Positions 664 through 16,229 of a stretch of 16,501 nucleotides of DNA are shown piece after piece (the first letter of the stretch is position 1; the number at the start of each line of letters is the position of its first letter). A program made the translations under genes and the position numbers. The notes below the pieces were generated by a model. That model did no database searches. It saw only the letters and a list, made by a program, of their open reading frames with translations, and was not told the DNA's origin. Origin of the DNA: an uncultured Oxalobacter sp. (lineage in GTDB: Bacteria; Pseudomonadota; Gammaproteobacteria; Burkholderiales; Burkholderiaceae_D); contig CAKRSU010000035.1 in the NCBI GenBank assembly GCA_934401755.1, positions 1-16,501 of the forward strand, read 5' to 3'.

Positions 664-2934
664 ATGAGAGGCAGACCCAAAAAACTACTTGCGTTAGTAT
701 TAGCGGTGTTTTTAATGGCGGCTATATTTCCGCTGTCCGCTTATGCTGATGAGGATCAAGAGAGCCAGGCTAAACGCTGGAATATCATGCTCGTGGTTGA
801 CGGCAGCGGATCTCTGTTTGCTACCGACGCGAACAAGCTTAGATATGATGCAATAGCGGCTTTCCTTGACATTATTCAGAGTGATGGGAACAATGTCGGT
901 GCAATTGTCTTTTCTGCAAATCCTACGGCATACGACTCGGATGAGGCCATGCGCCGCGGCATAATGCTCGACACGGGGCTTATCCCGCTGGACAAGTCTG
1001 CGCCGACGGGCGGGGACGCAAAAGCATATTTGGTAAATGCGATCCGCACGGCCGGTGTCAGTGTCAGTAGAGATGGCGCCACTGATATTGGCACGGCGTT
1101 GCTTGTCGCGCAGGAGCATCTCTCCAGCATGAATAATGGCAATGATTCGGCGATCTTCCTGTTTACAGACGGTGAGACCGATCTGAATACAGATGCTACA
1201 CGCAGAAAGTCTGGGGAAAATCTGAAGACTGCCACTAGCAATATGTACGATCAGGGTATAAAGCTGTGCGGCGTGTTTCTGAACAAGGATGGCAAGTCCC
1301 AGTCCAAGGAAGTGCGCAGTATTGTATGTCAGGCCAACGGTATATCTGACAGCAGCCTCAATCTTGGGGATATGTATGTTGAGATCACTGATGCAGCCAG
1401 CTGTGCAGACTCTACTGATAAATTCATGTCCATGCTTGGATTCAGCATTCCGGAGGGGGGGCCCGGATTTGTAATCTATGACAGTGCGGACATGAGTTTC
1501 CGTATTCCCGGTGTTGGCGTTGAAGAGGCCAATATCCGCCTGAGAACTGTTGATGGTGTGGCGCTCCCTGCGGGTGTTGATGTGACGATCACAGCGCCTG
1601 ATGGCACGGTCTATTCGGGGGCGTCCGCTGCGGCTATATGCTCAACCGGAAAGACATACAGAGTATATAAGATATCAAATCCCATGAGCGGCACTTGGAA
1701 GATACATATAGAAGTTCCCGAGGGGAATCAGGTAGGTATTTCCTATACGCCCGTGTTCAGCATATATATCGGAGCCAAAATGAATATTGAGCCTGCTGCT
1801 GACAAGCTGCATGTGAATATGAGTGCAAATGTAAGCGGAGTGCTGACACGCGGAGACACAGAGATCACTGACGCAAACGCATATAAGGAATATAAGTGCG
1901 TCTTCACGCTTACCGATGTTTCAAGCGGCGAGAAAACGGAGCACGAAATTCAGATGAACGGCAATGGCAAGTTCATAGACAGCATACCGCTTGATACATA
2001 TGGCATATTTGATGCGCAGATCCGCTTTGAGTGTGACGATGTTAGCGCAGTATCGGATATACAGACTTTGGATCTTACAAACAGAGCTCCGAATGGACCG
2101 TCATATTTGGACGCTAAAGTAAAGTATGGGCTTTTCCAGAAAAAGATTTATGAAATCGACCTTTCCGATGAATTTGTTGATCCCGAGGATGGCGGCAATA
2201 TTACACTGAGCGTTGATGATGCACAGTCTACCTGCAATACCTCAGCAGTGTCGATTGATGGGCTCAAACTGAATATTGAAAGTAAAAATATCAGCGACCA
2301 GAAGAAGTCATACCTTTATGTTGATGTCAGCGATACTTTAGGGGCGAGCTCGGAAATAAGCATAAATATCACTCATAAAAACATGACGCTCCCAATTATC
2401 CTTGCTTTTATTGGTGCAGCAGTCGCAATATTCCTGATCGTCTTATTTATCACCAGAGTAATAATACAGCGTCTTGACGGTGAGTGCACTCTTGAATTCA
2501 GCTGCAAAGACAAGCTTGTTGACTGCCTGCTTCCGCTTCCAGGAAGCGAATGCAAGCGCCATACGAATCTTGCAACTATGATCGCTGCCGGCAGACAGGA
2601 ACTCAAGGAGGGTTGCAGGCAGGCAAATGTCTCCATAGAGGATGCCGAAAGTGCCCTTCAGGAGTTTGGAGATCTCTCCAAGGTGAAAGTGTCTGTTGTC
2701 AATGGAAAAGATGGGCGTAAATTAGTGGCCAAGCTCCGGGTTTGCCAGAGCAAGGCGCAAGTTCTCTATAACAGCCAGATGGATGTTGATAGCAATGGCG
2801 TGAAGCTCACGATCGGATACTACGCTAAAGCGGATGGTGGTGCTGATGAATCAGGGATGTTTGATTTTGACGATGACAGCGTGACCATGAAAGATGACGA
2901 CGATACATGGAGCTTCTTTGACGATGAGGGTTGA
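664..2934 (+). CDS. Secreted, membrane-anchored vWA-domain protein with Ig/cadherin-like repeats
   Basis: This 756-residue protein opens with a Lys/Arg-rich signal peptide and a plausible cleavage after SAYA (residue 28). A von Willebrand factor A domain (about 38-260) carries an intact metal-ion adhesion site: DGSGS at 46-50, Thr140 and Asp169 in LFTDG. Residues 280-370 look like an Ig-type domain, with a VTITAPDG strand and an SGTWKIHIEVPEG strand. Residues 488-570 resemble a cadherin/dystroglycan-like repeat (EFVDPEDGG, then VDVSDTLGASSEI). One membrane helix lies at about 575-601. A cytoplasmic domain of about 155 residues follows and ends in an acidic aromatic tail (DDDDTWSFFDDEG). AGGAGA at 648-653 supports the ATG. 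It is the first gene of the operon. The likely role is metal-dependent binding outside the cell with signalling or docking inside; the ligand is unknown. Confidence 0.85.
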   Translation: MRGRPKKLLALVLAVFLMAAIFPLSAYADEDQESQAKRWNIMLVVDGSGSLFATDANKLRYDAIAAFLDIIQSDGNNVGAIVFSANPTAYDSDEAMRRGIMLDTGLIPLDKSAPTGGDAKAYLVNAIRTAGVSVSRDGATDIGTALLVAQEHLSSMNNGNDSAIFLFTDGETDLNTDATRRKSGENLKTATSNMYDQGIKLCGVFLNKDGKSQSKEVRSIVCQANGISDSSLNLGDMYVEITDAASCADSTDKFMSMLGFSIPEGGPGFVIYDSADMSFRIPGVGVEEANIRLRTVDGVALPAGVDVTITAPDGTVYSGASAAAICSTGKTYRVYKISNPMSGTWKIHIEVPEGNQVGISYTPVFSIYIGAKMNIEPAADKLHVNMSANVSGVLTRGDTEITDANAYKEYKCVFTLTDVSSGEKTEHEIQMNGNGKFIDSIPLDTYGIFDAQIRFECDDVSAVSDIQTLDLTNRAPNGPSYLDAKVKYGLFQKKIYEIDLSDEFVDPEDGGNITLSVDDAQSTCNTSAVSIDGLKLNIESKNISDQKKSYLYVDVSDTLGASSEISINITHKNMTLPIILAFIGAAVAIFLIVLFITRVIIQRLDGECTLEFSCKDKLVDCLLPLPGSECKRHTNLATMIAAGRQELKEGCRQANVSIEDAESALQEFGDLSKVKVSVVNGKDGRKLVAKLRVCQSKAQVLYNSQMDVDSNGVKLTIGYYAKADGGADESGMFDFDDDSVTMKDDDDTWSFFDDEG

Positions 2935-3002
2935 TGCCTTCTGATAAACCCAAAGCAATTAAAAATGCAAAGTAAATATAAAAACAGATATGGAGGATAA
3001 TT

Positions 3003-6000
3003 ATGCCAATTATACTGGATGAAAACAGGAGAAAGCAATTCGAGAGGCAGTTGGAGCGGCTTCGTGAGGATAAAATATTCCCGCCCATGAAGCGTGATAT
3101 GGTAAAGGGAAACCGTTATCTTATAATAAGCCTTGGCGGTACCGGTGCAGACGCGCTGTTCGGTATAAAGAAAAAGTTTGAGGAGGCAATACCGGCTGAC
3201 CAGCTTGAAGAATATGTGAGATTTCTTGCTATCGATACCGATAAAGCCACAAAGAACAGCGTAATAAAAGAAACCAGGCCTGACGGTACGGTAGGTACGA
3301 AAATCGTTGATTCGCTTAACGATAAACAGTTCTTCCTGCTGTCTGGCGCCAATGCCAGAACTGTTGTGACACATTCTCTGCCGATGGTTGACGACTGGAT
3401 AAATCCTCAGCTCCCGGACATCATAAAAAATAATTCTGATATGCTTAGCGGAACAGGAGCGTCTGCCACAAGACAGATAGGCCGAGTATCGTTGTTCCCG
3501 GCGGAGACTGTTGCGGCTCTCGATGGGCGCATCAGCAATCTTGTTGGGGAGCTCACTAACAATACGGCAGACAATCTCCGGGTCATGATAGTTTCCGGTA
3601 TAGCAGGTGGCACAGGGTCAGGCACGGTTATTGATATGTCATATCTTATAAGACATTTTATTAATCAAATGCCGGGCAGTATTGGCTCTCGTACCAAGTA
3701 CGGCGGCTTCATTCTTCTCCCGCCGACCGGAAACAGCACAAATCATGTCGATATTGAAAAGGGCAATCAGAACGGTTACGCCGCTCTCAAGGAGATAGAT
3801 CAGTTTATGACGCTTGCTGAGCGTGGCGAGGTATATTCTCACAGGTATGCCAACCAGGTGGTCAAATCAGGCAGCAATATATTTGATGCCTGCTATCTCA
3901 TGGACGGGGTTCGTAAAGGCGTCGCACTGGGTAAAAACGCCAGAAAGTATGTTGTAAATGTCCTGTCAGAGTGCATGCTGGATATGGCGACATCCCAGCC
4001 GGTTGATAGTGATGATAGCGCGCCGCAGACTGTTGACTCATTCATGAACGATGCGTCTCCATATGCTAGCAGCATGCTGAGAAGTAAGTCGGAGAGTGAA
4101 GCGCCCAGAGATGCCAACTATAAGTACTGCGCACTTGGCCACTGCGAGGCAGAGATCCCGATAGCGCTCATGAAGGCATATGTCGCGGAGAAAGTGTACG
4201 AAAAAATGCACACTGTCTTTGAAAAATGCGACAACCTCAAAGATGAGGATATTGAGGAGTTCGTCAAGAGTGTTATTGTACCGGAAAGAAAGTACACAGC
4301 GCAGGCTGTAAGAAAAAATGTTAATGAGAAGGTAGAAAGTATATTCAGGGCAGTGAACAGCGCATATAAAGGCGGACCGTACTATGCCTGCAATCTGCTC
4401 GCGGATGTTGATGTCCCTGTGGAGAAGTTAAAAAAGCAGTGGCCGGTATTCCGCCCGGGTAATGCAAGTGATGAGCAGCTTGATTTTATAGTGAATTACT
4501 GCTCTAAGCTTAATCATGATACTTTTGGTGTATTTACCGCTGTCATGGATGGAATGGCAGACATAATGGAACAGGAGGCTGATATTGAGAGTTATTCCAC
4601 AAAGACGGCAAACAGCTACGCATTTTGCCCGATAAATGTTACTGATTCGTCCGGGGCTGTCAGAAAATATCTTGATGGCCTTATAAGCGGGAAACGTATT
4701 GGAGAGCTTACCAATGCTTTGCTGGACGAGATGATAGAGAATAAGGATGAATGGACGCAGATATACAACAACGATAAGACCACAGGTGCGATGGATCTGC
4801 ATAAAGTCATCCGAAAATTCTGGAATGAACAGCTTGACAGTGTTATTAATGCAACGCTTGAAGATTTCCTCATTAAATTCTATTCTGGTGATGAGAACGC
4901 ATGCTATAATCCAGATGATCCGCAGAGCTCTGATAAACATCTTGAGACTGCGGCGAATGCAATATATGATCAGATGTTTGGCTCGGCGGGAAGAGCGCAC
5001 CCGATGGCCGACTTTACGAATATTGCCGGTCTTAGCGAGGCGGATTTCAATGGTCATAATTTCATTTTAGTTCCGGCGAAGGCCCCGCACCTGATGGCAA
5101 AGATAAAAGCCGTAGCGGCTTCAAAATCCACTCCGCAAAACAGCGTGGAAGTATATAGCAGCTTTGCAGATGACCGTATTTCCAGCTATGCACAGTATAC
5201 GGGTATCCCTGCCTTTAAACTCAACTGGGTATGCCGCGCAGAAAAAGACTATGAAGTAGCTCTTGCCGGGGCAAAGCAAGGCCTGCATATGTCAGAGTCC
5301 GTAAAAGGCCGGCTGTGGCGTGAGTTCCCAAATCTTCTGCCTGAGAGCACATGGAAGTTTGTTCCTGGGGAGAATTACAATAATAAGCGTGAAAAGGGCC
5401 TTGCCGATATGGCGCATAGCCTGTTTAAGGATGCGGATGAGCTGGGACTCACCAGGTCAGAGCCTGAGGAGAGCGGCAGTAAATTTATGAGGTACTCAGT
5501 GAAGCTGCTGCCGGCTGAGCTGAGACCGGATAATCAGCTTTTCAAAGAACGTGATCTTGCGGCCGATAACTCCAGAACCTGGGAAGAGAAGAACGGTGAA
5601 ATAGAGCGCAGCACGGAAGCGTGCGCCCAGGCGCTGTTTGATCGTCTGACTTCATTAATCGCCTCAGGAGACACAATTGACTACCTTGATACAGCGCTTG
5701 AGGGTTGCCAGAAGCCGGTGAGCTTTGTATCCAAGAACCTCTGGGCTGCTGAATATGTCCTTACCAGTGGCCATAAAAATGCTGCTGGAGAAAATGAAGA
5801 ACCCAGTGGTTGGTGTGAATATATAGCTGGTTGTGTGCTGCGTAAAATGCCGGATACGATGAACGATCTTCGCGGCACTATAGAGGTTATGAAGAAGCTC
5901 CGCGCAAAGGTGGACGCTGCATTTTCAGCCAATCAGTTGAGATGCTGGTTTGCGCGTTATCTTACGGTTGGACTCTTTAAATATAATAAAGCATACTACC

Positions 6001-6413
6001 AGTGGGAGTATACTGCGGCGGATGGATGCGAAGCGGTGCTTGTTGAGCTTGAACCGGATGATAAGATCCAGAAAACTGCTGAGTATTACTTTATGTTCAA
6101 TGCCTTAAAAGCCCTCGAAAAGGAAGAACTTGATGCGCTGCAGGCTGGTTATTATGAAATAGCTTCTTATGATAATAGAAAAGAGCATGTTGAAAAGCAG
6201 CAGGCGTTGAAGGCCAAAGCAGTGGAACTCGGACAGGAAGTTCAGACGAGATTCAACGGTAAGAACCCTGACAAGCTGTGCGTACTCGGGTCGACCGAAT
6301 ATGAAAGAGCAGCGATGAAGAGAGGTTATGATGTCGCGGCTATTCGTGCGTTCTACAGGGAGCTTGCGAACGAGCTTTCTGATCTGACGTTTGACATGAG
6401 GCAGAGGGGCTGA
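3003..6413 (+). CDS. Tubulin-like protein (Tubulin_2 type)
   Basis: This 1136-residue protein has no signal peptide or membrane helix and should be cytoplasmic. Near the N-terminus a beta strand and glycine loop read YLIISLGGTGAD (39-50), followed by FLAIDTD (74-80), a layout like the first nucleotide-binding loops of FtsZ/tubulin. The signature loop is AGGTGSG (GGTGSG at 202-207), close to the GGGTGSG of FtsZ/tubulin. Length and layout match the bacterial 'tubulin-like' Tubulin_2 family, which is far larger than FtsZ; the roughly 900 residues after the signature are family-specific and mostly helical. GTP binding is expected; polymerisation is possible but cannot be read from sequence. TGGAGG at 2991-2996, six bases before the ATG, is a strong ribosome site. 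It lies 68 bases after the vWA gene and before two orphan genes, which suggests it is the cytoplasmic core of the system. Confidence 0.85.
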   Translation: MPIILDENRRKQFERQLERLREDKIFPPMKRDMVKGNRYLIISLGGTGADALFGIKKKFEEAIPADQLEEYVRFLAIDTDKATKNSVIKETRPDGTVGTKIVDSLNDKQFFLLSGANARTVVTHSLPMVDDWINPQLPDIIKNNSDMLSGTGASATRQIGRVSLFPAETVAALDGRISNLVGELTNNTADNLRVMIVSGIAGGTGSGTVIDMSYLIRHFINQMPGSIGSRTKYGGFILLPPTGNSTNHVDIEKGNQNGYAALKEIDQFMTLAERGEVYSHRYANQVVKSGSNIFDACYLMDGVRKGVALGKNARKYVVNVLSECMLDMATSQPVDSDDSAPQTVDSFMNDASPYASSMLRSKSESEAPRDANYKYCALGHCEAEIPIALMKAYVAEKVYEKMHTVFEKCDNLKDEDIEEFVKSVIVPERKYTAQAVRKNVNEKVESIFRAVNSAYKGGPYYACNLLADVDVPVEKLKKQWPVFRPGNASDEQLDFIVNYCSKLNHDTFGVFTAVMDGMADIMEQEADIESYSTKTANSYAFCPINVTDSSGAVRKYLDGLISGKRIGELTNALLDEMIENKDEWTQIYNNDKTTGAMDLHKVIRKFWNEQLDSVINATLEDFLIKFYSGDENACYNPDDPQSSDKHLETAANAIYDQMFGSAGRAHPMADFTNIAGLSEADFNGHNFILVPAKAPHLMAKIKAVAASKSTPQNSVEVYSSFADDRISSYAQYTGIPAFKLNWVCRAEKDYEVALAGAKQGLHMSESVKGRLWREFPNLLPESTWKFVPGENYNNKREKGLADMAHSLFKDADELGLTRSEPEESGSKFMRYSVKLLPAELRPDNQLFKERDLAADNSRTWEEKNGEIERSTEACAQALFDRLTSLIASGDTIDYLDTALEGCQKPVSFVSKNLWAAEYVLTSGHKNAAGENEEPSGWCEYIAGCVLRKMPDTMNDLRGTIEVMKKLRAKVDAAFSANQLRCWFARYLTVGLFKYNKAYYQWEYTAADGCEAVLVELEPDDKIQKTAEYYFMFNALKALEKEELDALQAGYYEIASYDNRKEHVEKQQALKAKAVELGQEVQTRFNGKNPDKLCVLGSTEYERAAMKRGYDVAAIRAFYRELANELSDLTFDMRQRG

Positions 6414-6442
6414 CTCTGATCCGGATAGACAACTGAGAAGTG

Positions 6443-6469
6443 TAAAGGCCGCCAAAATCGCGGCCTTTA
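6443..6469 (+). terminator. Intra-operon hairpin (attenuator or partial terminator)
   Basis: A perfect 10-bp inverted repeat, taaaggccgc (6443-6452) with gcggccttta (6460-6469), has a 7-base loop (caaaatc). It sits 30 bases after the tubulin-like stop and 37 before the next start. The only T-run is inside the stem, so complete termination is unlikely. It more probably lowers read-through or protects the upstream mRNA 3' end. Confidence 0.55.
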
Positions 6470-6505
6470 TGCGATATACAAAAGCTATGTGCGAAAGGAC
6501 ATAAA

Positions 6506-7867
6506 ATGAAAATCTCTGAAATGATTCAGGCAAAATATCCAATTGAATATTATGTCAATTCTGAAAATGCCGACCCTGTTGCGATCCGTTTTGCAGACGA
6601 TGTCAGTGCTGCGCTTGCCGGGAGTATAGAAAGAGGACTGAGCAGGATGCTCGTTGATATTGCGGATGAGGGCGGGAATGGCATTGCGGAGATCGTCATT
6701 GAGGCCGGCACAGGCGGAAACTCTTGCTGTGTGTCTGTATCCAGCGGAGAAAGGTATTTTATTGCGGATAAAGATCCGGTCGATGCCGTGACCTGGATAG
6801 TTTATGCGGTATCCACGCGGTGTGACTGGCTCAGGCAGCTTGACGGCTGTGATATATCCACGCGTATGTTCTCGTCAAATCAGCAGTATATATCCGCAGT
6901 CCTGCTCAGAAGCGCCAATGAGCAGTATGAATCTTCCGTCATCCCCGAGAGGATCAATGAGATTTTCAAAGAGCTCTGCACCGTGCCTGAAAGGTTTGCT
7001 AAAACAGCGCCGCGTTTTTCTGAGCAACCCATTAATGACGAAATCTATAAGCAGTGGGCATGTGGCGGCTTTCTGCACAGGAAGCGTACTGTGCAGCGCA
7101 CGAATGTTGGCGAACTGGCGGAAGAGCTGTATGACAGAAACAGTTTTATGGAGAAAATACAGGCTTTCTGTAAGTTCATAGAATCTACAGAAACATTCAG
7201 CAGGGGATTAGAGAAAGCAGCGGACTATTTGCACGGGAAATTGGAGGATACACCATGCCTTGCAATACAGAATGCATTAGTAAGTCTTGAAAATCTTGCT
7301 GCAAATCAGTATCCGGCGCCAGATCGGAGCGCACTGGAAAGGCTTATGGAAGACAGCATAATGAGCTTTAGTCTTACAAAAAGTAATCTCGCGTCTGCAT
7401 TCAGAAGGCTGGATGAATACTATATCGAGGCGGCTCGGTATCAGCTTACGCGCGATTTCTTTTCCTCGCTGCTTCATAGTCCGCTTATTGAATCCATCAG
7501 AGAGGAACGCGAGGAGACATTGACAAAACTTAACATGCTTCGCCGCGATCTGTCAGGCTTCTGTAGAGTGCCGGACGCCGAGCTTGATCCGGACGCCAAA
7601 CATATCGGTTGGAGCAAGCTTGTAAATATTCAGGACAGTTACCTACGTTGTGAGGACAAACTATGGACGCCGGGGTTCGCAAATGAGCTGCGTATGACCA
7701 TACTTAACACGAGGCCTTGTAGAGTGTTCATTTGCCCTCAGGCGCTGTATCATGACGCAGAGTCTATATATTTGCGCGAGGATGTCACCGTCAAACCTGT
7801 ACCTCTGACTGACAACAGAAATATTTTCTGCATATGGGCGGATATGCACAGCGAAGGCGGTATATAA
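6506..7867 (+). CDS. Orphan cytoplasmic protein of the tubulin/GTPase operon
   Basis: I do not recognise a family for this 453-residue protein. It has no signal peptide or membrane helix. The first 110 residues look like an alpha/beta domain (IAEIVIEAGTGG and VSVSSGERYFIADKDPVDAV). The middle (about 120-360) is strongly helical and charged. The end returns to beta strands (CRVFICPQAL, IFCIWADM). GTGGNS is glycine-rich but lacks the Lys of a P-loop. AAAGGA at 6494-6499 supports the ATG. The stop at 7865-7867 is followed one base later by the next ATG, so the two are almost certainly translated together. Position directly after the tubulin-like gene suggests an adaptor or regulator of it, by context only. 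Confidence 0.8.
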   Translation: MKISEMIQAKYPIEYYVNSENADPVAIRFADDVSAALAGSIERGLSRMLVDIADEGGNGIAEIVIEAGTGGNSCCVSVSSGERYFIADKDPVDAVTWIVYAVSTRCDWLRQLDGCDISTRMFSSNQQYISAVLLRSANEQYESSVIPERINEIFKELCTVPERFAKTAPRFSEQPINDEIYKQWACGGFLHRKRTVQRTNVGELAEELYDRNSFMEKIQAFCKFIESTETFSRGLEKAADYLHGKLEDTPCLAIQNALVSLENLAANQYPAPDRSALERLMEDSIMSFSLTKSNLASAFRRLDEYYIEAARYQLTRDFFSSLLHSPLIESIREEREETLTKLNMLRRDLSGFCRVPDAELDPDAKHIGWSKLVNIQDSYLRCEDKLWTPGFANELRMTILNTRPCRVFICPQALYHDAESIYLREDVTVKPVPLTDNRNIFCIWADMHSEGGI

Positions 7868-7868
7868 A

Positions 7869-8495
7869 ATGAAAGAAGAATTAAGAGAACAGCTGCTGAA
7901 AGATTTTTCCGATTTTTCCTGTTATGTTCAGAAGGAAAAAAGCGGGAACACCCTCCGCATGAGCTCTAATTGGAAGGGCCGGACTCCCGGTGTTAAAAAG
8001 ATCGCGGTTCATCTCACAGGCGTCAACCCGCTGACCGGAGAGCAGGTAGACAAGGCCGGTATATGCGCTGTTTTTACAGCCGAAACGTCAAGCTATAGAT
8101 CGGATATTCTAACATATCATGGCCGGTATAAACTGCGCTTTTCGGCTTATCTCGACAACGGCGAGGTTATAAGCGATTTTAGAGAACCAAAGGAAGTAGA
8201 GTTTGTCAGCTCAGCAAAGAAACCGTACATCAAATATGGACTGAAAAAACTATCAGAGTTTACTCAGATAACAGTCGAGTGTAATTGCTGGAGAATGGTG
8301 GAAAATAATGTGTGGTTGAAACTTGGCAGCCGCGGTCAGCAGCGCTATCAACCGCTGCCTGTTCAGAAGCAGTCTGGGCAAAAAATGACATGGGTATTGC
8401 CGACTGTGGACGATATCGGGGTCGAGGTATCAGATGAGCTGAAAAAATTTCAAATTGAAGTTAAGGACGAGAAACAGAAAGGTTGGACACGGTAA
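7869..8495 (+). CDS. Orphan small beta-rich cytoplasmic protein
   Basis: This 208-residue protein has no signal peptide or membrane helix and no family I can name. After a short N-terminal helix (KEELREQLLKDFSDF) it alternates strand and turn, for example KKIAVHLTGVNP, GRYKLRFSAYLDNGEV and EVEFVSS. Such a pattern would fit one or two beta-sandwich (Ig-like) or barrel domains. The tail is Lys/Gln-rich. The gene starts one base after the upstream stop, and its own stop (8493-8495) touches the next ATG at 8496. This tight packing implies fixed stoichiometry with the orphan upstream and the GTPase downstream. It may be a small adaptor bridging the two; that is inference. Confidence 0.75.
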   Translation: MKEELREQLLKDFSDFSCYVQKEKSGNTLRMSSNWKGRTPGVKKIAVHLTGVNPLTGEQVDKAGICAVFTAETSSYRSDILTYHGRYKLRFSAYLDNGEVISDFREPKEVEFVSSAKKPYIKYGLKKLSEFTQITVECNCWRMVENNVWLKLGSRGQQRYQPLPVQKQSGQKMTWVLPTVDDIGVEVSDELKKFQIEVKDEKQKGWTR

Positions 8496-10325
8496 ATGGA
8501 GTTCTTTTGCGCAAAATGTCAGAGAAAACATGAAGTATCTGAAATTGCTGCTGATATATGGAGCATCTGCAAGGAAGATGTGAACGCGTGCCTTAGCAAT
8601 ATTTCAAGTGAAATGGATGCACACAGGCCTGAACACGGGGAAGATAAAATCGTATACCGTAAGTTCAGGAACCTTGTAAGTGAGTCCAGAGATGCTGAGG
8701 ATGTCAAGACGACAATAAACGGTTTCCATGCATATCTAATTAAATTCATAAATGAAAATCCTAAAGTTGCTTTTGAATTTATGATGCGCGGCAGTGAAAT
8801 CAAAGAGTATCTAACGGATGCGCAGATCGTCGAGTCAACAGTGACCGGCAACATGTGTATAAGCCTTGGCAGAATTATAGAGCTTTATCGGCAATACGGA
8901 GCGAGAACTACGAGTGAAGATGAATTCTATAATAAGTACCTTGATATTATTACAGACGATATTCTGCGGGAGAATATCTATGAAAAGAGAATGACGTTTT
9001 ATTATAACAAGGTACGCTTTCAGGACGAAGTTGATTATGTACTCGAAAGAGGCACAGATGAAAACAATGTTCCGTTTGCAATGGGCGGCGAAATGCTTGG
9101 CTTTGTAAGAACCTGCCCGTATTGCGGAAGCAGGGTCTCACAGGCGGTCGGCAGAGCGCCGGAAATAGTTATCGCACTTGCGGGTGGTCCGCGTGCCGGA
9201 AAAACGTCCTGTCTTACCGCTCTCACAAGTGCGCTCAGTTCCGGTAAATATGCCGAGTATGATCTTGGAATTCAAGCCATGCAGCACGATAAACTCTGGA
9301 AAAGGCTTTCCGAGGAGATACAGCATTATCAGAAGTGTGTTAAGGTCACAAAAACAGCGACTGACCAAAATGAGGTTTCATCTTACTCCGTGCTAGTCCG
9401 TTTTGGACGGCAGAACCGTGTTCTCACTTTTGTGGATATGCCCGGTGAGTTCTGGGAGAGCGGCAGCGGCTTGTCGCCGGCGTTTTTTCAACAGTATTCT
9501 GGACTTTACCAGAGTATTGACTGCATTTGGTTCGTTGCCTCGAAACTTTCCGTCTATGAATTCGATTTGGGAACGCCTGGACGCCAGTCCGAGCTTCAGG
9601 AGCTTCTTGCTAAACAGACTTCTGAAACGTCAACGCTCATTGAGCAGTCCAGACCGTCCAATCTTGACGCTAATTTCCGCACCCTGCGCAGTCAGCTTGT
9701 AGCGTGGGGTAAGGATATGCCGCCGGTTGCGGTTATTATCAGTAAGCCCGATGTCTGTACCGGCGATGAAGATAAGAATTCCGTAAAGCAGTATAATCTA
9801 TTTCCGATTGACGGCGATGTCCCAAGCGTGAATCTCAGCGACCTGATGAATGTGCTGCAAAGAGATAGAAGCGGGCAGTACTATCTCAGAGAGAAACGTT
9901 TTTATGACTGCGGCATGAATGTACGCAAGTTTGTTTATAAAAAAAATAATGCTCTTTTCAGAGCTATAGAGGATAATTGCCCGGATCGGTTCTACATCTC
10001 AATGGCGGCCTATGGCTGTCCGGCTGCTGACTCGGCGGACAAAGCGCAAAGTGGGCCGAAGCCATTTCATGAGATGTTCCCGCTCATATGGACGCTCGCG
10101 GTGACCGGAGTTCTCGGAATCGCTCACCAGTGTGTTTGGAGAGACTATGATATTTTCAAGAACTTTAAGAGTGCTACTAATGGCGCTGAGAAAGTTGTTT
10201 TTGATTATCGCGTTGTACCCAATACGTCAAAGCGCGATAAGGAGAAGAAAATTATATTTGATGATGTCGCAAGCAATCTTCTAATGAGAAGCAAGAGTTA
10301 TAAGATCAGCGAATTCGAACATTGA
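8496..10325 (+). CDS. P-loop GTPase with split zinc-binding CxxC pairs
   Basis: This 609-residue protein begins with CAKC (5-8). A helical region of about 190 residues follows, then a second pair, CPYC (207-210), immediately before the nucleotide-binding domain. Walker A is GGPRAGKT (230-237). The G3/Walker B motif is FVDMPGE with Asp314-Met-Pro-Gly317. A G4-like motif SKPD (416-419) follows the strand VAVII and replaces the usual NKxD; SMAAYG near 505 could be the G5 region. These features fit a TRAFAC-type GTPase of the kind found with vWA and GAP1-like partners in bacterial GTPase-centred operons. No membrane helix is visible. Its ATG directly abuts the previous stop, with only a weak AAAGG about 13 bases upstream, so translation is probably coupled. 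The large protein downstream is its likely partner. Confidence 0.85.
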   Translation: MEFFCAKCQRKHEVSEIAADIWSICKEDVNACLSNISSEMDAHRPEHGEDKIVYRKFRNLVSESRDAEDVKTTINGFHAYLIKFINENPKVAFEFMMRGSEIKEYLTDAQIVESTVTGNMCISLGRIIELYRQYGARTTSEDEFYNKYLDIITDDILRENIYEKRMTFYYNKVRFQDEVDYVLERGTDENNVPFAMGGEMLGFVRTCPYCGSRVSQAVGRAPEIVIALAGGPRAGKTSCLTALTSALSSGKYAEYDLGIQAMQHDKLWKRLSEEIQHYQKCVKVTKTATDQNEVSSYSVLVRFGRQNRVLTFVDMPGEFWESGSGLSPAFFQQYSGLYQSIDCIWFVASKLSVYEFDLGTPGRQSELQELLAKQTSETSTLIEQSRPSNLDANFRTLRSQLVAWGKDMPPVAVIISKPDVCTGDEDKNSVKQYNLFPIDGDVPSVNLSDLMNVLQRDRSGQYYLREKRFYDCGMNVRKFVYKKNNALFRAIEDNCPDRFYISMAAYGCPAADSADKAQSGPKPFHEMFPLIWTLAVTGVLGIAHQCVWRDYDIFKNFKSATNGAEKVVFDYRVVPNTSKRDKEKKIIFDDVASNLLMRSKSYKISEFEH

Positions 10326-10340
10326 GCAGGGGGCGATTAA

Positions 10341-13300
10341 ATGGATTATCAATATATAAATACAATAAAAGATGAATCTTACATAGATTTACCAAGCAAA
10401 TTTCCATTCCCATCCGCAACTATGGGCGACATTCATAAATATGGCTGCTGCGATCACTTCCTCAAGTCAAATTTACCCGGATTGGTGATATATTTTAAGC
10501 TTTGCTACGATAGGAAACCTCCGATCGAGGTGCTGTCAAAAGTGGCCAGAAAGGAACACTCGGTATCTGTTGGACGTTTTACACAGTGCGTAGGCTGGGC
10601 TTGGAATGGGGATCTGCTGCTCAATAACTTTGACGATATTGTGGATACGGCTTTCTACACCGAGGACGAGATCGATGCTTTTGCGCAGTCCGGCGAGGCT
10701 GTGCCAAAACGGGAAGAGCGGGCTGTTAATCCGGTTCAAGAGATAAAACTGGATGTACAGGCCATTAAAGCAGTATTTTTCGCCGCTATGCTTCGTTGGC
10801 TGCGCGGCGATATGGCGGTGCAGATCGCTGTGCCGGGTAACGTGGACTATAATGCTTACGTTGCTGCCGCTGTAAAGAAAATATATTCCTATTTTCCTGT
10901 CGGACTTCGTGCAGAGGCTGGGTTCTGTTCGTATCTGCCCAGAGATAAAGCAAATGAGTTTCGACCGGTGTTCATAGGCTTTGTACCCGAGAGCATGGCG
11001 GATGGAAAGACGGTATTTCTTGACGGCTCGAGCGTTGCTGCTATAGAAGCGCTCACGGCTGGTACCGGTCTAAAAAATCTTGATTTGTTTATAAACTATG
11101 TGTGCAGCTTGGAAGACGAAGAGAGAGCCCGCTTTTTACATACTGTATATGTCGATATGGAGAACTCAGGCGCTCCTGAGGCAGCAAACGACCTCGCGGC
11201 GATAAAGTATTCCTATCTTGGCGACGCTATACGGCTTGTTTCCAGTAATGGTGCTCCGCATGAGCTTATTCGTCAGTGGATGCAGTTCTATTCGAACCGC
11301 AGCAAATATCCGTTGTCCATGAGTGATGAAATAGATGCCCGGATACGTGAGCTGCTGACGGATGAGGTCGTTGCAGAGTCAATTCGCGCAGACTGCGAGA
11401 ATGAGACGTCAGCGGACGGCATAGGTGAGGTGATGATAACCTATAACGCTCTGTGCGGTGCGAAGAAGAGCTGGTCGGATATTGCATGGTCGACTATGTG
11501 CTCCGCACTCAGAACCAAGCTGGGACTCGGTTACAGGGAAATATATGATTTTGCCCGCAGCTGCCGTGCAAAGCTGAGCAATATTGTTGACGAGGAGAAG
11601 ATAACGTCAATAGCGGTTTCTTTCCTGCGTGAGAAATATAATGAGATCAACGGATATGAGCTTGAGACTTCCGCACAGATCGAAGCTGCCGCCCGGGAGG
11701 CAAAAAAATTGCTTGATGCCTCCGAAAAGCTCTATGAAACGCAGGATGCGCTTGCTTTTGCTGCGCAGGTGCATGAGCTTGTACAGCGAATCGAAGACAA
11801 ACGCTATTCAAATGACGTAATTTACCGTGAGATAAATGAAAAAATTGCCGGGGCCGGCAGTTATTTTGAGGCGCTCAACATCTACGCAGATAGCGCTCCC
11901 AGCGTTGCAGCTATGGATCCCGCGCAGATAGATGGGCTGAAACAGACGCTGGCAGGCTTGCGTCCCGGAAATATCACGGATTATATCAAAGCTTTTAAAG
12001 CGTATTACAATATAGACATAAATAAGAAGCCTGTGCTGGCTGATGTTGCGGCTCTTCCGGAGTTCGTGAGTTCAATGATACTGACGGACCTTTCATCTTT
12101 CAGAGTGGTGCAGGTAACACTTTCCAGCGAAAGAAAAGCAAGAGAAATAAACGACTATGTTGTAGACACCGAGGGACTTGCGGCCAGACTTTCGCATGAT
12201 TGCAGGATCAACGTAAGATTTAATAATAAGGAAGTCAGCGCTGGATGGCTGAAAGCGCTTGCCGGATGCACACTTACGGCAAAGAATGTCGGAGACAAGG
12301 CAGAATTCCGGCGGAGCCTTTTTAGTCTTATAGAGAAAGGCAGCTACAGGGTACGCGACATTCCTGCAATATGTGCCATGACAGAGGCATGTGGAGTCGA
12401 TGTGGTTGAGGATATTTTCTGTTTTGCGCTGGAGGGGAGATTTACTAATAGCTCTGACAAGGATTATTTTACTGCATTTGACTGTTTGCGCAGAAATATT
12501 GGTATGCAGGATGACGCTGAGACGCTTGAGACTCTTATAAAATATAGAAAAGACATGCGTACGGTCGATCCTGTAGCGGGAAAAGCATTCAGCAGCTATG
12601 TAAATGACTGCAAGCGTGCACAGAAGAATGGAAAGCAGCAGGGAAGCCCGGCCATTCTGATTGCTGTAGGTGCTGTGGCAATGTGCCTGCTGGTATTGTC
12701 AACTGTGCTGTTTATCTGTTTCAGGCATCTTAATGCAAAATCAATAGAGTTAGATGCGCAGAACAAGCAGCAAATTGAGATGCTGGAAAAAGAAGTACAC
12801 GACAGTTATGCTGTCAACCTCTTTGATCGTGAGTTTGATGATTATGCGCAGCGTTTCAGCGATATTATCGCAGAAGAGGAAAATCAGAGTATTGTAAATG
12901 ATTACAGCACCCAGCATAAAATCGACGACGAAATTTCAAAAGTCGGAGATCAGCAGGTTAAGTGGGGAGAATATGTGTTCTGGACATTTGTTCTTGCTGC
13001 CGATGAAAACAACATTGTAACGCCAGAGTCGATTGAAGCCGTGCAGTTGAGGGTAAATAGCGCTATTGAGCTTATGCACCCTGATTTGGCTGTCCCAGCA
13101 GTGCCCGAATCGACAGAGTCTCCGGAAGAATTGACAGATGGAGAAAATGAGATGCCGTCTGATGATACACCGGAGCGGGCGATTGATAATAACAGCTATG
13201 ATGATTCTGCTGCGGCAACAGAACCTGAACCAAGCTCGGAGATAACTCATGAAGTTGAACCCACGCCAGAGGCTGCTGAAGAAATAGATTTGGTTGACCA

Positions 13301-13373
13301 GATAATTGAGATGATGAGACATATATTTGAGGCAGCAAAAGAACACTGCAGTATATCATATTTATTAAATTGA
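10341..13373 (+). CDS. Large GAP1-like GTPase-partner protein with a C-terminal membrane helix
   Basis: This 1010-residue protein has no signal peptide. Residues 135-215 read as a helix (IKAVFFAAMLRWLRG), a strand (MAVQIAVPG), a helix ending in IYSYFPVGLR, and then AEAGFCSYLP. That order resembles the middle region of 'GTPase-associated protein 1' (GAP1) proteins, where a 'LP..lr..lsF.ty' pattern is common; the match is from memory. Residues about 230-765 are helical and may be repeat-like. A single membrane helix lies at about 771-794. The last 216 residues, predicted outside, start with a coiled coil (around QNKQQIEMLEKEV) and continue into an acidic Pro/Glu/Ser-rich stretch. A GGGGG-containing ribosome site at about 10330 precedes the ATG. 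It lies 15 bases after the GTPase gene, so the pair probably forms a complex at the membrane. Confidence 0.7.
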   Translation: MDYQYINTIKDESYIDLPSKFPFPSATMGDIHKYGCCDHFLKSNLPGLVIYFKLCYDRKPPIEVLSKVARKEHSVSVGRFTQCVGWAWNGDLLLNNFDDIVDTAFYTEDEIDAFAQSGEAVPKREERAVNPVQEIKLDVQAIKAVFFAAMLRWLRGDMAVQIAVPGNVDYNAYVAAAVKKIYSYFPVGLRAEAGFCSYLPRDKANEFRPVFIGFVPESMADGKTVFLDGSSVAAIEALTAGTGLKNLDLFINYVCSLEDEERARFLHTVYVDMENSGAPEAANDLAAIKYSYLGDAIRLVSSNGAPHELIRQWMQFYSNRSKYPLSMSDEIDARIRELLTDEVVAESIRADCENETSADGIGEVMITYNALCGAKKSWSDIAWSTMCSALRTKLGLGYREIYDFARSCRAKLSNIVDEEKITSIAVSFLREKYNEINGYELETSAQIEAAAREAKKLLDASEKLYETQDALAFAAQVHELVQRIEDKRYSNDVIYREINEKIAGAGSYFEALNIYADSAPSVAAMDPAQIDGLKQTLAGLRPGNITDYIKAFKAYYNIDINKKPVLADVAALPEFVSSMILTDLSSFRVVQVTLSSERKAREINDYVVDTEGLAARLSHDCRINVRFNNKEVSAGWLKALAGCTLTAKNVGDKAEFRRSLFSLIEKGSYRVRDIPAICAMTEACGVDVVEDIFCFALEGRFTNSSDKDYFTAFDCLRRNIGMQDDAETLETLIKYRKDMRTVDPVAGKAFSSYVNDCKRAQKNGKQQGSPAILIAVGAVAMCLLVLSTVLFICFRHLNAKSIELDAQNKQQIEMLEKEVHDSYAVNLFDREFDDYAQRFSDIIAEEENQSIVNDYSTQHKIDDEISKVGDQQVKWGEYVFWTFVLAADENNIVTPESIEAVQLRVNSAIELMHPDLAVPAVPESTESPEELTDGENEMPSDDTPERAIDNNSYDDSAAATEPEPSSEITHEVEPTPEAAEEIDLVDQIIEMMRHIFEAAKEHCSISYLLN

Positions 13374-13386
13374 ACCGGTAGTAATT

Positions 13387-13420
13387 CCGCACGCTCTTCT
13401 ATATACAACAGAACGTGCGG
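13387..13420 (+). other. Hairpin just upstream of the transglutaminase-like gene
   Basis: CCGCACG (13387-13393) pairs with CGTGCGG (13414-13420) around a 20-base loop; TTCT and AGAA inside the loop can extend the structure. There is no T-run, so it is not a classical terminator. It ends 7 bases before the ribosome site AAAGGAG (13428-13434). It could slow or protect the transcript at this junction, or modulate initiation of the GTG-start gene. Confidence 0.45.
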
Positions 13421-13441
13421 AGAATATAAAGGAGAATAGCA

Positions 13442-14827
13442 GTGGCGAGAAAGAGAAATCAAGATAGACTCGGAAGTCCGTTTGATGATAAAGAGAATAA
13501 ATATGGAAGCGATATTTATTCGGATGACACTGATAATATAAGCCCCTACGGTCAGGGGAGCTCTATTAGACGTTATAGGGAACAAGAAAAAAAGAAACGT
13601 AGTTATGAACCGTACATTGTTGCCGGGATTGTTGTTTTAATTAGTATCCTGATTTTCCTGATAATAGGGAAATCCCTCGGAACATGGCACCATACAGTGA
13701 TTGTAACACCACCTCCCCGCCAGACTGCAAACTTGAGTACACCCGTCCCTACTACGGCACTGTCGAAGCAGACACCTGTGCAGGAAAACATTGTGGCAAC
13801 CCCCGTTCCAACTGCTGGACAAACAACTCCAGTTGAACTTACAGACAGATATTTTGGCAGAAAGCTGGGCACTATTCAGAAAACCGCATATGAGAAAATC
13901 AGAGATGGCGTTGCGGTACACGATGCGCAGATCGATATTAAGCTTACAAATATTGACGACGTAGTGCTTGTAGCGGATTCAGTTTGCTGGGATTATCCGG
14001 AGTATTTCTGGTTCACCACTGAAATCAAATATTCATATTCCATGAACGGGGATACATATAGCATCACTGTTGAACCGGTATACCGGTTTGATGCGAACGA
14101 ATATATTTCCTACAGTGCTGAGGTTGATTCTGTATTTCAACCGGTGATAAACAGTCTCTACTCAGCGTCAGACTATGAAAAAGTCAAAGGCGTCTACGAG
14201 TTCCTGATTGAGTATACAAAATATGACTTGGAGTACCATGGAATGTCGATATATGAGCTTGCCCGTGACGGACGGGCAGTGTGCGAAGCGTATGCCAGAG
14301 CAACGCAGTACATGCTTACGAAGCTCGGAGTAGAGACATTGTTTGTTGTAGGTGACAGTGATAGCGACGGCACGGGAATGGAAGGGCATGCGTGGAATAT
14401 TGTTAAGCTGGACGGGGAGTACTACAATGTTGATACTACCTGGGGTGACCCGGTTATGACAGACGGCTCGCAAAAGCTTGTATATGACTATCTCTGTGTG
14501 ACAGATAAGGATCTGCAGAAGACGCACCTACCGGATGATAACGGCTACCCGGAGTGCACGGCCACAAAGTATAATTACTACCGTCTTAACAACAGATATC
14601 TTGATAGTTACGACGAGAGCGTCATAGCCAACTGGATAGCACAGGCGAATGGCGGCGAGGTAGCGTTCCAATTGGCCTCGGAGGACTTGTATAATGAGAC
14701 AATGAGTCAGTTATTTGATAAGGGTAGAATATTCGATATTGCCGAGACTGCGATTGGAGAAGGAAATATTTCATATGTGTATGGCAACAACCAAAACATG
14801 CGCACGATTTCACTGAAGATAAATTGA
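13442..14827 (+). CDS. Membrane-anchored extracytoplasmic transglutaminase-like protein
   Basis: This 461-residue protein has a charged, disordered N-terminus (1-55), one membrane helix (about 58-77) and a Pro/Thr-rich spacer (88-132). The transglutaminase-like domain follows, about 145-345. The Cys-His-Asp triad is visible: Cys281 in GRAVCEAYA, His316 in EGHAWNIVKL and Asp331 in YYNVDTTWGDP. This is the papain-like Transglut_core arrangement. With an Arg/Lys-rich cytoplasmic start the enzyme should face outward. Such domains may crosslink or cleave proteins; the substrate here is unknown. Translation starts at GTG, supported by AAAGGAG seven bases upstream and by the absence of any in-frame ATG before the membrane segment. 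About 100 residues follow the core and are not recognised. It probably acts on surface partners of the vWA proteins. Confidence 0.85.
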   Translation: MARKRNQDRLGSPFDDKENKYGSDIYSDDTDNISPYGQGSSIRRYREQEKKKRSYEPYIVAGIVVLISILIFLIIGKSLGTWHHTVIVTPPPRQTANLSTPVPTTALSKQTPVQENIVATPVPTAGQTTPVELTDRYFGRKLGTIQKTAYEKIRDGVAVHDAQIDIKLTNIDDVVLVADSVCWDYPEYFWFTTEIKYSYSMNGDTYSITVEPVYRFDANEYISYSAEVDSVFQPVINSLYSASDYEKVKGVYEFLIEYTKYDLEYHGMSIYELARDGRAVCEAYARATQYMLTKLGVETLFVVGDSDSDGTGMEGHAWNIVKLDGEYYNVDTTWGDPVMTDGSQKLVYDYLCVTDKDLQKTHLPDDNGYPECTATKYNYYRLNNRYLDSYDESVIANWIAQANGGEVAFQLASEDLYNETMSQLFDKGRIFDIAETAIGEGNISYVYGNNQNMRTISLKIN

Positions 14828-14861
14828 AAGGAGTGCGGCTTTCGGGCTGCGAGGAAAGATG
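14827..14861 (+). promoter_or_regulatory. Ribosome site with structured spacer before the last vWA gene
   Basis: A strong AAAGGAG (14827-14833) lies 25 bases before the ATG, too far for normal use, and a weaker GAGG (14851-14854) lies only four bases before it. Between them GCGGC (14835-14839) can pair with GCTGC (14846-14850), with one G-U pair and a six-base loop. Folding this hairpin would leave nine unpaired spacer bases between AAAGGAG and the ATG, an ideal distance. Confidence 0.4.
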
Positions 14862-16067
14862 GCAGAGGATAGACGTAAATTTAATTGGTTGATGTTGTTT
14901 ATCACGATTTTCTTCGGGGTTGTGTCGTGGGTTTGTGCGGCACTTGTACGAGAGAAGTTGGGACCGTTTGTGCCGAGAATTATACTGGTGGGTATATGCT
15001 TTGCTGTTACTGCGCTGATCGTATGCAGTATGATCTGTCTTGTCAGTAAAGGCGCGGGCACTTTTGAAGCTAATATTATTACTGGCCGCCGCAGTGCAGG
15101 TATGATTGCGGTATATATACTCATCGGTACAATTATAATATTTGGCGCAGGCGTTCTTATGGAATACATATACGAAGTTAACTTCAAAAAAGCGGGTGGG
15201 GAACCGACGTCTTATATCTTTTTGATAGACGACTCCGGCTCAATGACCCAAACCGACGAAGAGTATTCCAGATATTCGGCAGTAAATGAAATGCTCAAGA
15301 GTAAAGAGCCTGAGTTCCCATATGTTGTATATAGCTTTTCTAATGATGTGACGCTTATGCACTCAGGGAAAGCTGCTGACGGCGGGGTAGAGTTTTCGGG
15401 CGAATTAGGCGATGAGACGCGTGTACGTGGTGCCCTTGAGACAGCGTTTGATGACTATGGTAAAAGGAAATGGGATGGAGGTACAAATCCCAAATTCGTG
15501 CTCCTGACAGATGGCGTGGCAACCGATGTAGAGTATTATACGGAGCTTGATCCCATCTTGGGGAAGTATGCTGCTAAAGGTATGACTATAAGCTGCGTAG
15601 GGGCGGACAAGGCGGATGAGAAATTGCTTAACTATGTTGCAGAAGCTACAGGCGGTGTGGTGGTGAAAGCGGACGAAGGTGCCAAGCTCAATTCTGCTAT
15701 ATCGACAGCTGCGTTAAGCGCTGCGGCAAGAGACCTTTTCTCGTTTAGGCACGGTGTTCGTATGGGTTTTGTCTATGCGATCATAAGAGTTTTTACAATT
15801 ACACTCATTGGTGTGCTTATCGGCGTGCTGTCGGCTTTATGTTATGGCGACAGCGATAGCGCAAACAGCGTACTTGTCATAGCGGCCTGCAAATCTCTGG
15901 TAGCGGGACTCGTCCTCGAACTGGGCATAAATAAACTGGGCTTCGACGAAGCGTGGTGCTGGCTGATCTCGTGGTTATTAATGTGCATGCTTTTTGTCCA
16001 ACACAGTGTGAGAGCAGCAAGTCCAAGCGTAGATTACAGCGCGCCGACATCCATATTCGAGAATTGA
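14859..16067 (+). CDS. Polytopic membrane protein with an extracytoplasmic vWA domain
   Basis: This 402-residue protein has three membrane helices (about 10-30, 38-62 and 80-105), a vWA domain (about 117-285) and three more helices (about 304-328, 335-356 and 365-383). The metal-ion adhesion site looks complete: DDSGS at 124-128, a likely Thr187, and Asp218 in LLTDG. The positive residues at the N-terminus and in the GRRS loop place the vWA domain outside the cell. The N-terminal helices before a vWA recall BatA/BatB-like membrane proteins, but the flanking triplets differ and no MoxR ATPase is nearby. It is the last gene of the operon, 31 bases after the transglutaminase-like gene. Together with the first gene it brackets the operon with two vWA proteins of different build. 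Its partner or ligand is unknown. Confidence 0.8.
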   Translation: MAEDRRKFNWLMLFITIFFGVVSWVCAALVREKLGPFVPRIILVGICFAVTALIVCSMICLVSKGAGTFEANIITGRRSAGMIAVYILIGTIIIFGAGVLMEYIYEVNFKKAGGEPTSYIFLIDDSGSMTQTDEEYSRYSAVNEMLKSKEPEFPYVVYSFSNDVTLMHSGKAADGGVEFSGELGDETRVRGALETAFDDYGKRKWDGGTNPKFVLLTDGVATDVEYYTELDPILGKYAAKGMTISCVGADKADEKLLNYVAEATGGVVVKADEGAKLNSAISTAALSAAARDLFSFRHGVRMGFVYAIIRVFTITLIGVLIGVLSALCYGDSDSANSVLVIAACKSLVAGLVLELGINKLGFDEAWCWLISWLLMCMLFVQHSVRAASPSVDYSAPTSIFEN

Positions 16068-16201: not shown

Positions 16202-16229
16202 AAGGCCCTCGGGTTTCCCCGAGGGCCTT
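16202..16229 (+). terminator. Operon-distal hairpin terminator
   Basis: A perfect 12-bp inverted repeat, aaggccctcggg (16202-16213) with cccgagggcctt (16218-16229), has a four-base loop. It lies 135 bases after the last operon gene. A T-run is lacking on the plus side, but the upstream A-rich flank would give a T-rich tail on the minus strand, so it may work in both directions. Confidence 0.7.

Follow-up and report, generated by a model that had tools for sequence, protein, structure and literature searches.

A probable variant of the tubulin-type DO-GTPase/GAP1 systems that carries a transglutaminase-like gene

Described systems and layout of the locus

Makarova and Koonin (2010; PMC2875224) described operons in which FtsZl1 is joined to vWA and GTPase genes; FtsZl1 has no recognizable elements that contribute to FtsZ filaments, and a role in membrane remodeling or vesicle formation was proposed for these operons. 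Tubulin-type GAP1-N2 "GTPase-centric" systems were described by Kaur et al. (2020; PMC7159879), who proposed a role in conflict for the class, with the tubulin replacing STAND NTPases. In their Firmicutes version, where two tubulin genes are a theme, the tubulins occur with two vWA proteins, one of which has multiple transmembrane (TM) helices and an outward vWA domain, and with a GAP1 protein that has a polar C-terminal extension. We found no experimental function for any member of the class in the literature.

The window analyzed here, a stretch of 16,501 nucleotides, contains eight open reading frames (ORFs) between positions 664 and 16067, all on the plus strand and separated by gaps of 0 to 92 bp. 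This bears out an earlier account made from the letters alone (here, the sequence-only reading), which had described eight codirectional, closely spaced genes. The same account had framed the genes with promoters and a terminator, and the promoter part stood: two near-perfect sigma-70-type promoter-like sites lie on the plus strand upstream of gene 1, TTGACA-17-TATAAT (12/12) at positions 291 to 319 and TTGACA-17-TATACT (11/12) at positions 549 to 577, the latter 86 bp before the gene. Since the scan returned 37 sites in total compared to a shuffle mean of 28.3 (standard deviation, 5.4), weight is given only to these near-perfect sites. The terminator part did not fully stand. A 12-pair, GC-rich, terminator-like hairpin follows gene 8 at positions 16202 to 16229, but it was called on the minus strand only and is absent from the plus-strand list, where the T-run is missing; a plus-strand terminator at this place is a plausible prediction. 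No RNA family matched the window at the gathering threshold. Over the Pfam cut-off, genes 1 and 8 carry vWA domains, gene 2 Tubulin_2, gene 5 DO-GTPase2, and gene 7 Transglut_core, and genes 3, 4, and 6 gave no match; TM helices were predicted by hydropathy in four of the eight products.

The cluster very probably represents a Clostridia (perhaps more narrowly an Oscillospiraceae-like) form of the tubulin-type DO-GTPase/GAP1 system known from the literature, overlapping the FtsZl1/vWA/GTPase operons, and the supposition that vWA/GTPase/GAP1-type operons form a known class was correct (PMC7159879). The linkage of tubulin, GTPase, GAP1, and vWA genes is not new; here it comes with an extra transglutaminase-like gene. 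Shared with the GAP1-N2-type systems are a DO-GTPase of the TRAFAC clade with a Walker B glutamate and cysteine pairs before the P-loop, a GAP1 protein with a polar C-terminal extension encoded downstream of it, a tubulin with a long C terminus, and two vWA proteins, one of them multi-TM and outward by hydropathy. Unlike those systems, the window has a GAP1 too diverged for Pfam, one detectable tubulin, and the transglutaminase-like gene; the YtkA-fused vWA protein was not seen, and the FNIII protein has a counterpart only in a low-confidence model. With the FtsZl1 operons the window shares an FtsZ-like protein with a long C-terminal region and neighboring vWA and P-loop GTPase genes, whereas the OmpA-like and protein-kinase genes of those operons were not found over the Pfam cut-off.

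Genes 1 and 8 encode vWA proteins predicted to face outward

Gene 1 (positions 664 to 2934, plus strand; 756 amino acids [aa]) matches PF13519 (3e-9) and PF00092 (2.9e-8). Its product begins with a hydrophobic segment at residues 8 to 26, a probable signal peptide by hydropathy, followed by a vWA domain predicted outside, with a DGSGS MIDAS motif at residue 46. The region after the vWA domain gave no Pfam match over the cut-off; it includes a predicted TM helix (residues 578 to 596) and then about 160 residues with an acidic end, which hydropathy places in the cytoplasm. Gene 8 (positions 14859 to 16067, plus strand; 402 aa; PF00092, 6.5e-6) starts 31 bp after gene 7. Five TM helices are predicted in its product, and the vWA domain, with a DDSGS MIDAS motif at residue 124, lies between the third and the fourth and is predicted outside. 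The topology proposed by the sequence-only reading, with two vWA domains, a transglutaminase-like domain, and an acidic tail facing outward, needs one correction by hydropathy: the acidic tail predicted outside belongs to gene 6, and the acidic end of gene 1 is predicted to be cytoplasmic.

Gene 2 encodes a tubulin-like GTPase and is followed by two orphan genes

Gene 2 (positions 3003 to 6413, plus strand; 1,136 aa) matches Tubulin_2 (PF13809, 1.4e-46) over residues 40 to 402 and continues into a long C-terminal region. We take PF13809 to be equal to FtsZl1. Before the GGTGSG loop at residue 202 stands an Ala, which means that a GGGTG(S/T)G-type motif is kept except for its first Gly. Among the 120 gene 2 homologs listed, the nearest are 89 to 91% identical to the window protein, followed by homologs at 64 to 65%, 50%, and about 40%. 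Neither the tubulin profile nor the GTPase had a real match among solved structures. No second tubulin was detected, gene 2 alone matching Tubulin_2 in a Pfam search of the eight window proteins; given the poor model of gene 3, a diverged second tubulin in the cluster is possible.

Gene 3 (positions 6506 to 7867, plus strand; 453 aa) has three homologs, and its poor model (pLDDT 43.5) shows a small alpha/beta N terminus and a mostly helical remainder with no recognizable fold. No relative of gene 3 was detectable in the fetched tubulin loci, where its place is occupied by a larger third gene with no relation seen to it. The product of gene 4 (positions 7869 to 8495, plus strand; 208 aa) is nearly all beta in a model of low confidence (pLDDT 53.8), and its first half is perhaps FN3-like. 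A pectate lyase-like identity was rejected, as the best Foldseek match had an E value of only 2.2e-3 and none reached 0.001. The counterpart of gene 4 in relatives, a gene of about 200 aa, is alike only in size and place.

Genes 5 and 6 encode a DO-GTPase and a diverged GAP1 protein

Gene 5 (positions 8496 to 10325, plus strand; 609 aa) matches DO-GTPase2 (PF19993) at 5.7e-8 and 33.2 bits, over a cut-off of 27, with a P-loop GGPRAGKT at residue 230, a Walker B DMPGE at 314, and SKPD at 416. Two CxxC pairs, one at residue 5 and the other 200 residues away at residue 207, likely form one interrupted zinc ribbon. The second pair lies exactly 23 residues before the P-loop, as it does in 19 of the 29 other DO-GTPase-profile matches (window excluded, duplicate L008 dropped), and D..GE is present in 22 of these 29.

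Gene 6 (positions 10341 to 13373, plus strand; 1,010 aa) starts after 15 bp. By hydropathy its product has one TM helix (residues 772 to 790) and an acidic C-terminal tail outside, the last 130 residues holding 32 D/E compared to 4 K/R. The GAP1-like partner named by the sequence-only reading was recovered by profile methods only, a direct Pfam search being negative. An HMM was built on seven nonwindow proteins at the position of gene 6; five of these were run against Pfam, which found GAP1-N2 and GAP1-M in four and GAP1-M in that from L003, and the other two are 90 to 92% identical to that from L001. Among the eight window proteins gene 6 alone scored with this HMM (18.3 bits), and in four iterated rounds on loci without the window it reached 28.4, 27.1, 24.4, and 24.0 bits over residues ∼97 to 220. 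Comparison to GAP1 by hhalign gave 89% and an E value of 2.3e-6, with the alignment covering mainly the N/M junction and M. A Pfam GAP1 match is also absent in three of eight GAP1-position proteins of relatives (L012, L008, and L073). A predicted TM helix was found in 10 of 22 distinct relatives at this position, some of them cut short; GAP1 is therefore not membrane-anchored as a rule.

Gene order in relatives points to a core with variable companions

Order was tallied over 35 tubulin rows from 34 loci, among the matches listed by a genome-contig scan for tubulin loci. L008, which is on the same contig as L077, was left out; so were the closest relatives (89 to 91%, 64 to 65%, 50%, and about 40%), the tallied loci having tubulin matches of about 25 to 38% identity, and many rows end at contig or stretch limits. 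In 26 of 32 rows, the gene immediately upstream of the tubulin gene encodes a vWA protein. The exceptions are L009, L011, L074, one of the two rows in L078, where a second tubulin stands between the vWA gene and the tubulin, and L084 and L090, where a vWA gene is present and overlaps the called tubulin start. A same-strand DO-GTPase was found in 23 of 35 rows and none within the fetched stretch in the other 12, which include the distant tubulins of L081, L082, L083, and L088. Among 11 rows with at least 9 kb downstream, three of them from Paenibacillus species, DO-GTPase and GAP1 genes follow the tubulin gene in nine; the exceptions are L074 and L089, and in L089 a profile search did find a GAP1 relative. 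Five of 27 gene 6 homologs are probably linked to gene 2 homologs as well: their longest contigs are identical in size to those of listed gene 2 homologs (37908, 17783, 29539, 72265, and 16575), which suggests common contigs.

Relatives of gene 8 occur in 13 of 35 rows at variable positions, for instance between the tubulin and the GTPase in L001, L002, L004, L005, L007, and L073 and beyond GAP1 in L077, with an opposite-strand ORF intervening, and L080. Most rows without gene 8 offered less than 9 kb downstream. These orders, the upstream vWA gene in 26 of 32 rows and the downstream DO-GTPase and GAP1 genes in nine of 11, support a core of four recognizable genes (1, 2, 5, and 6) that acts as a single system, in which genes 3 and 4 occupy conserved positions. 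The single eight-gene system of the sequence-only reading, which had proposed such a comparison, therefore held for the order of the tubulin, GTPase, GAP1, and vWA genes but not as a fixed unit of eight, given that gene 3 is without relatives in these loci and that genes 7 and 8 are variable.

As for origin, a viral or mobile source was not supported: three scans with short peptide patterns found no relative in viral contigs, and there were one distant partial phage match and three distant partial plasmid matches (Meiothermus, Allomeiothermus, and Thermus).

Gene 7 is an occasional accessory

Gene 7 (positions 13442 to 14827, plus strand; 461 aa) follows gene 6 by 68 bp, with a GTG start preceded by AAAGGAG, and matches PF01841 at 1.3e-9. 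Hydropathy predicts a TM helix at residues 58 to 76 and a transglutaminase-like domain outside. Residues 132 to 422 match PDB 9crn_A (2.8e-20) and, in the alignment, share its Cys, His, and Asp positions (Cys281, His316, and Asp331); its N-terminal TM helix and its setting in a tubulin/GTPase operon distinguish gene 7 from the transglutaminase-like surface proteins 9crn_A and NF045980. The match to the NF045980 lipoprotein family was 73.5 bits, far below its cut-off of 450. Bacterial proteins of the transglutaminase fold are often peptidases, and the domain could be a crosslinking transglutaminase or equally a peptidase.

A gene 7 relative lies within 10 kb of a tubulin gene in four of 32 genomes (G576, G471, G087, and G194), where about 1.1 would be expected by chance within 20 kb (P = 0.026 for at least four and 0.10 for at least three). 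G576 and G471 belong to the same genus, and the G194 match is below the Pfam cut-off yet clear with gene 7 as the query (4.8e-33). Within 8 kb, three were seen compared to 0.44 expected (P = 0.01), from two lineages. An association above chance is thus suggested, not established. Among eight gene 7-type neighborhoods viewed, G576 and G194 are tubulin loci, whereas the other six (G515, G239, G778, G781, G069, and G287), including those of the two best gene 7 relatives (G515 and G239), gave no tubulin, DO-GTPase, or GAP1 match. We conclude that gene 7 is an occasional accessory of the system. In G239, a 772-aa vWA protein is encoded about 7 kb from the gene 7 relative (gene 8 profile, 2e-24).

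A possible envelope-linked GTP switch and competing explanations

The explanation that we consider best as a whole, at a probability of about 0.5, is as follows. The outward vWA domains of genes 1 and 8 and the GAP1 tail of gene 6 would detect changes on the outside of the cell through metal-dependent ligand binding at the intact MIDAS motifs. The signal would cross the membrane via the parts of gene 1 and GAP1 that lie in the cytoplasm, the end of the former and the body of the latter, and would set the nucleotide state of the DO-GTPase, and this envelope-linked GTP switch would control tubulin-like assembly. Taken by itself, this logic of sensing, switch, and assembly is tentative, at somewhat less than an even chance, and it assumes that the gene 2 product polymerizes. 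In response to stress or conflict, the assembly may then act on the envelope, an output that we offer still more guardedly, and the gene 7 enzyme would be an accessory that was recruited and modifies a protein on the surface.

Two competing explanations follow the published proposals. A system directed against phages or other invaders, in which an NTP-dependent multimer assembles to kill or wall off the infected cell, is rather unlikely here. The class was defined in this way from variable effectors and multicellular hosts (PMC7159879). Extra domains in the relatives are consistent with it. Among the 120 tubulin relatives listed, a distant one (P0111, 24% identity) has Pfam accessions that are presumably TIR and FtsK, a finding that also counts for the explanation considered best, and three of 27 gene 6 homologs (P0143, P0144, and P0150) carry extra accessions that we take to be leucine-rich repeats, which would mean that GAP1 takes exchangeable parts. 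However, Pfam found no known toxic effector in the window, PADLOC gave weak matches only and no good model match, and no close relatives were found in phage and plasmid collections or, by short peptide patterns, in viral contigs. A machine for membrane remodeling or vesicle formation is less probable still. The components are alike, namely, an FtsZ-like protein, vWA, a GTPase, and membrane proteins (PMC2875224), and half of the products have predicted TM helices, but no membrane-deforming domain was recognized by Pfam and the output would be deduced from the tubulin fold alone.

An inside-out machine, the proposal of the sequence-only reading, in which assembly within the cytoplasm would place vWA adhesins and a crosslinking transglutaminase outside the cell, is about as improbable as membrane remodeling, and a crosslinking or adhesion output is speculation. 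The outward vWA domains with MIDAS motifs and the Cys-His-Asp set fit this idea; the irregular presence of gene 7 beside tubulin genes, its core-free neighborhoods, and the frequent peptidase activity of its fold do not. One study (PMC12008871) reports that a methanogen vWA/tubulin-like operon is upregulated under agitation, alongside adhesion-like genes. More doubtful again is that two units merely adjoin, a conserved core of genes 1 to 6 and an unrelated surface pair of genes 7 and 8. The rarity of gene 7 beside tubulin and the varied places of gene 8 relatives, with the opposite-strand ORF in L077, argue for such a division, but genes 7 and 8 each start close behind the preceding gene, most rows lacking gene 8 extend too little downstream, and a multi-TM vWA protein belongs to the Firmicutes systems (PMC7159879). 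Least probable is a bacterial analog of the link between integrins and the cytoskeleton, in which a polymerizing tubulin-like GTPase, gated by a membrane-bound switch of the GTPase and GAP1, would directly control outward MIDAS-type vWA domains and the transglutaminase would then fix the contact covalently.

The cluster, in which the predicted topology is clear, only one tubulin is detectable, and a catalytic handle probably lies outside, offers a practical case for the study of bacterial tubulins at the membrane. Tubulin relatives of the gene 2 kind are common enough to matter: at an E value of ≤0.001, they were found in 29 of 394 sampled genomes from the order of an Oscillospiraceae metagenome-assembled genome (MAG) and in 24 of 400 from the family of the same MAG, two samples with some genomes in common.

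Gene order in the operon and its relatives

The eight open reading frames (genes 1 to 8, 664 to 16067) all lie on the plus strand and are spaced 0 to 92 bp apart, as the sequence-only reading had said in calling them co-directional and closely spaced. Two near-perfect sigma-70-type promoter-like sites, ∼260 bp apart, were found at 291 to 577, within the 600-bp region upstream of the genes, and a strong hairpin lies on the 3′ side of the series. No Rfam family was found in the promoter-bearing region.

The tubulin-like GTPase (gene 2, 3003 to 6413) has 146 homologs, of which 120 were listed. Among the matches listed, six showed 89 to 91% identity, two 64 to 65%, one 50%, and the others at most 44%; the named ones (28 to 43%) came from Faecousia, Candidatus Limivicinus, and Oscillospiraceae MAGs, which makes a Clostridia host of Oscillospiraceae-like affinity probable for the window. 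Relatives' loci gathered by genome-contig and whole-genome searches included, among the matches listed, Paenibacillus, Clostridium, Cytobacillus, Thomasclavelia, Clostridia MAGs, and others. The order that recurred was vWA, tubulin, a large gene, (a second vWA), a ∼200-aa gene, double-GTPase (DO-GTPase), and GAP1. For 35 tubulin genes tallied from 34 loci, many of which are truncated by contig or stretch ends, a vWA gene directly preceded tubulin in 26 of the 32 with sequence there, a DO-GTPase was on the same strand in 23 of 35, and DO-GTPase plus GAP1 lay downstream in 9 of the 11 with at least 9 kb. Loci L077 and L080 have the second vWA past GAP1, like the window, with an opposite-strand ORF intervening in L077. 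In L002, L003, and L006, a DO-GTPase/GAP1 pair lies upstream of the vWA-tubulin pair. Two tubulin-like genes share a single cluster in L078 (5636 to 9061 and 9796 to 12750) and in L073/L074 (G087 contig 60), where the second is directly 3′ of a transglutaminase-like gene.

Domains and predicted topology

Pfam detected vWA in genes 1 and 8, Tubulin_2 in gene 2, DO-GTPase2 in gene 5 (8496 to 10325), and Transglut_core in gene 7, and nothing above its cutoff in genes 3, 4, and 6. The DxSxS MIDAS motifs, the tubulin GGTGSG loop, the P-loop, Walker B, and SKPD of gene 5, and the Cys/His/Asp set of gene 7 are all present. By hydropathy, gene 1 has a hydrophobic N-terminal segment and a single predicted transmembrane helix, which would place its vWA outside and ∼160 residues inside. 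Single helices are also predicted in gene 6, followed by an acidic tail, and in gene 7, ahead of the enzyme domain; gene 8 has five, with vWA between the third and fourth.

The CxxC pair of gene 5 is split, one near the N terminus and the other exactly 23 residues before the P-loop, a spacing found in 19 of 29 other DO-GTPase profile hits; the stretch separating the two varies in length among gene 5 and its relatives. In L013 (9302 to 12880), the DO-GTPase profile matches three successive genes (9e-6, 1e-57, and 2e-93), which suggests that the switch component has expanded there.

Gene 6 as a diverged GAP1

From profile comparisons, gene 6 (10341 to 13373) is assigned to GAP1 as a strongly diverged member. 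When eight proteins at the relatives' GAP1 position were compared with Pfam, four (L001, two in L002, and L007) matched GAP1-N2 and GAP1-M, that of L003 matched GAP1-M, and those of L012, L008, and L073 had no Pfam match. A profile of seven such proteins aligned with the profile of gene 6 homologs at 89% probability. The seven-protein HMM, which contains no window sequence, matched only gene 6 among the eight window proteins (18.3 bits), and four HMM rounds on window-free loci gave 28.4, 27.1, 24.4, and 24.0 bits; bit scores are preferable here because the E values refer to an eight-sequence search. A transmembrane helix is predicted at the GAP1 position in 10 of 22 distinct relatives. Three of 27 gene 6 homologs (P0143, P0144, and P0150) carry Pfam accessions that are presumably leucine-rich repeats, and GAP1 parts therefore look exchangeable.

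Gene 7 as a probable lineage accessory

Gene 7 matches the solved transglutaminase-like protein 9crn_A, and the preferred reading is that it is an accessory gene of this lineage. Because family matches occur in all 32 genomes examined, their proximity to tubulin in 4 of 32 is just modestly above chance. The order conserved in relatives is vWA-tubulin-DO-GTPase-GAP1, not the full set of eight genes; in the 32 genomes, the two proteins most similar to gene 7 are encoded away from tubulin.

System logic and precedents

The anatomy supports a system in which sensors face outward, a GTPase switch is tied to the membrane, and a tubulin-like protein assembles; the likeliest logic is envelope sensing with tubulin assembly. 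The outward-facing sensors would feed the switch, and the tubulin-like protein would act as the assembler; we infer its polymerization as well as the direction and output of signaling. Conflict defense, membrane remodeling, and adhesion compete as outputs. P0111, a distant gene 2 homolog of 1402 aa with 24% identity, has Pfam accessions that are presumably TIR and FtsK, a hint that the broader tubulin-like family may function in conflict. Kaur et al. 2020 (PMC7159879) proposed such a role for the class, and Makarova and Koonin 2010 (PMC2875224) described FtsZl1/vWA/GTPase operons and proposed membrane remodeling.

The sequence-only observation is largely right and its system real, but the class is already in print. 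Kaur et al. defined the DO-GTPase, GAP1, and the tubulin theme, whose Firmicutes form combines two vWA proteins with a GAP1 that ends in a polar tail; their main text mentions transglutaminase once, for another system's VMAP component (PMC7159879). What the window contributes is a compact version of this class: its GAP1 is strongly diverged, just one tubulin can be detected, and a transglutaminase-like protein is present as an accessory. Among the matches listed in the open-licence PMC literature, none reported experiments on a bacterial member. A methanogen vWA/tubulin-like operon, whose tubulin-like protein is CetZ according to the study's authors, was upregulated under agitation (2025; PMC12008871), and a 2024 paper mentions a DO-GTPase beside phage-shock genes.
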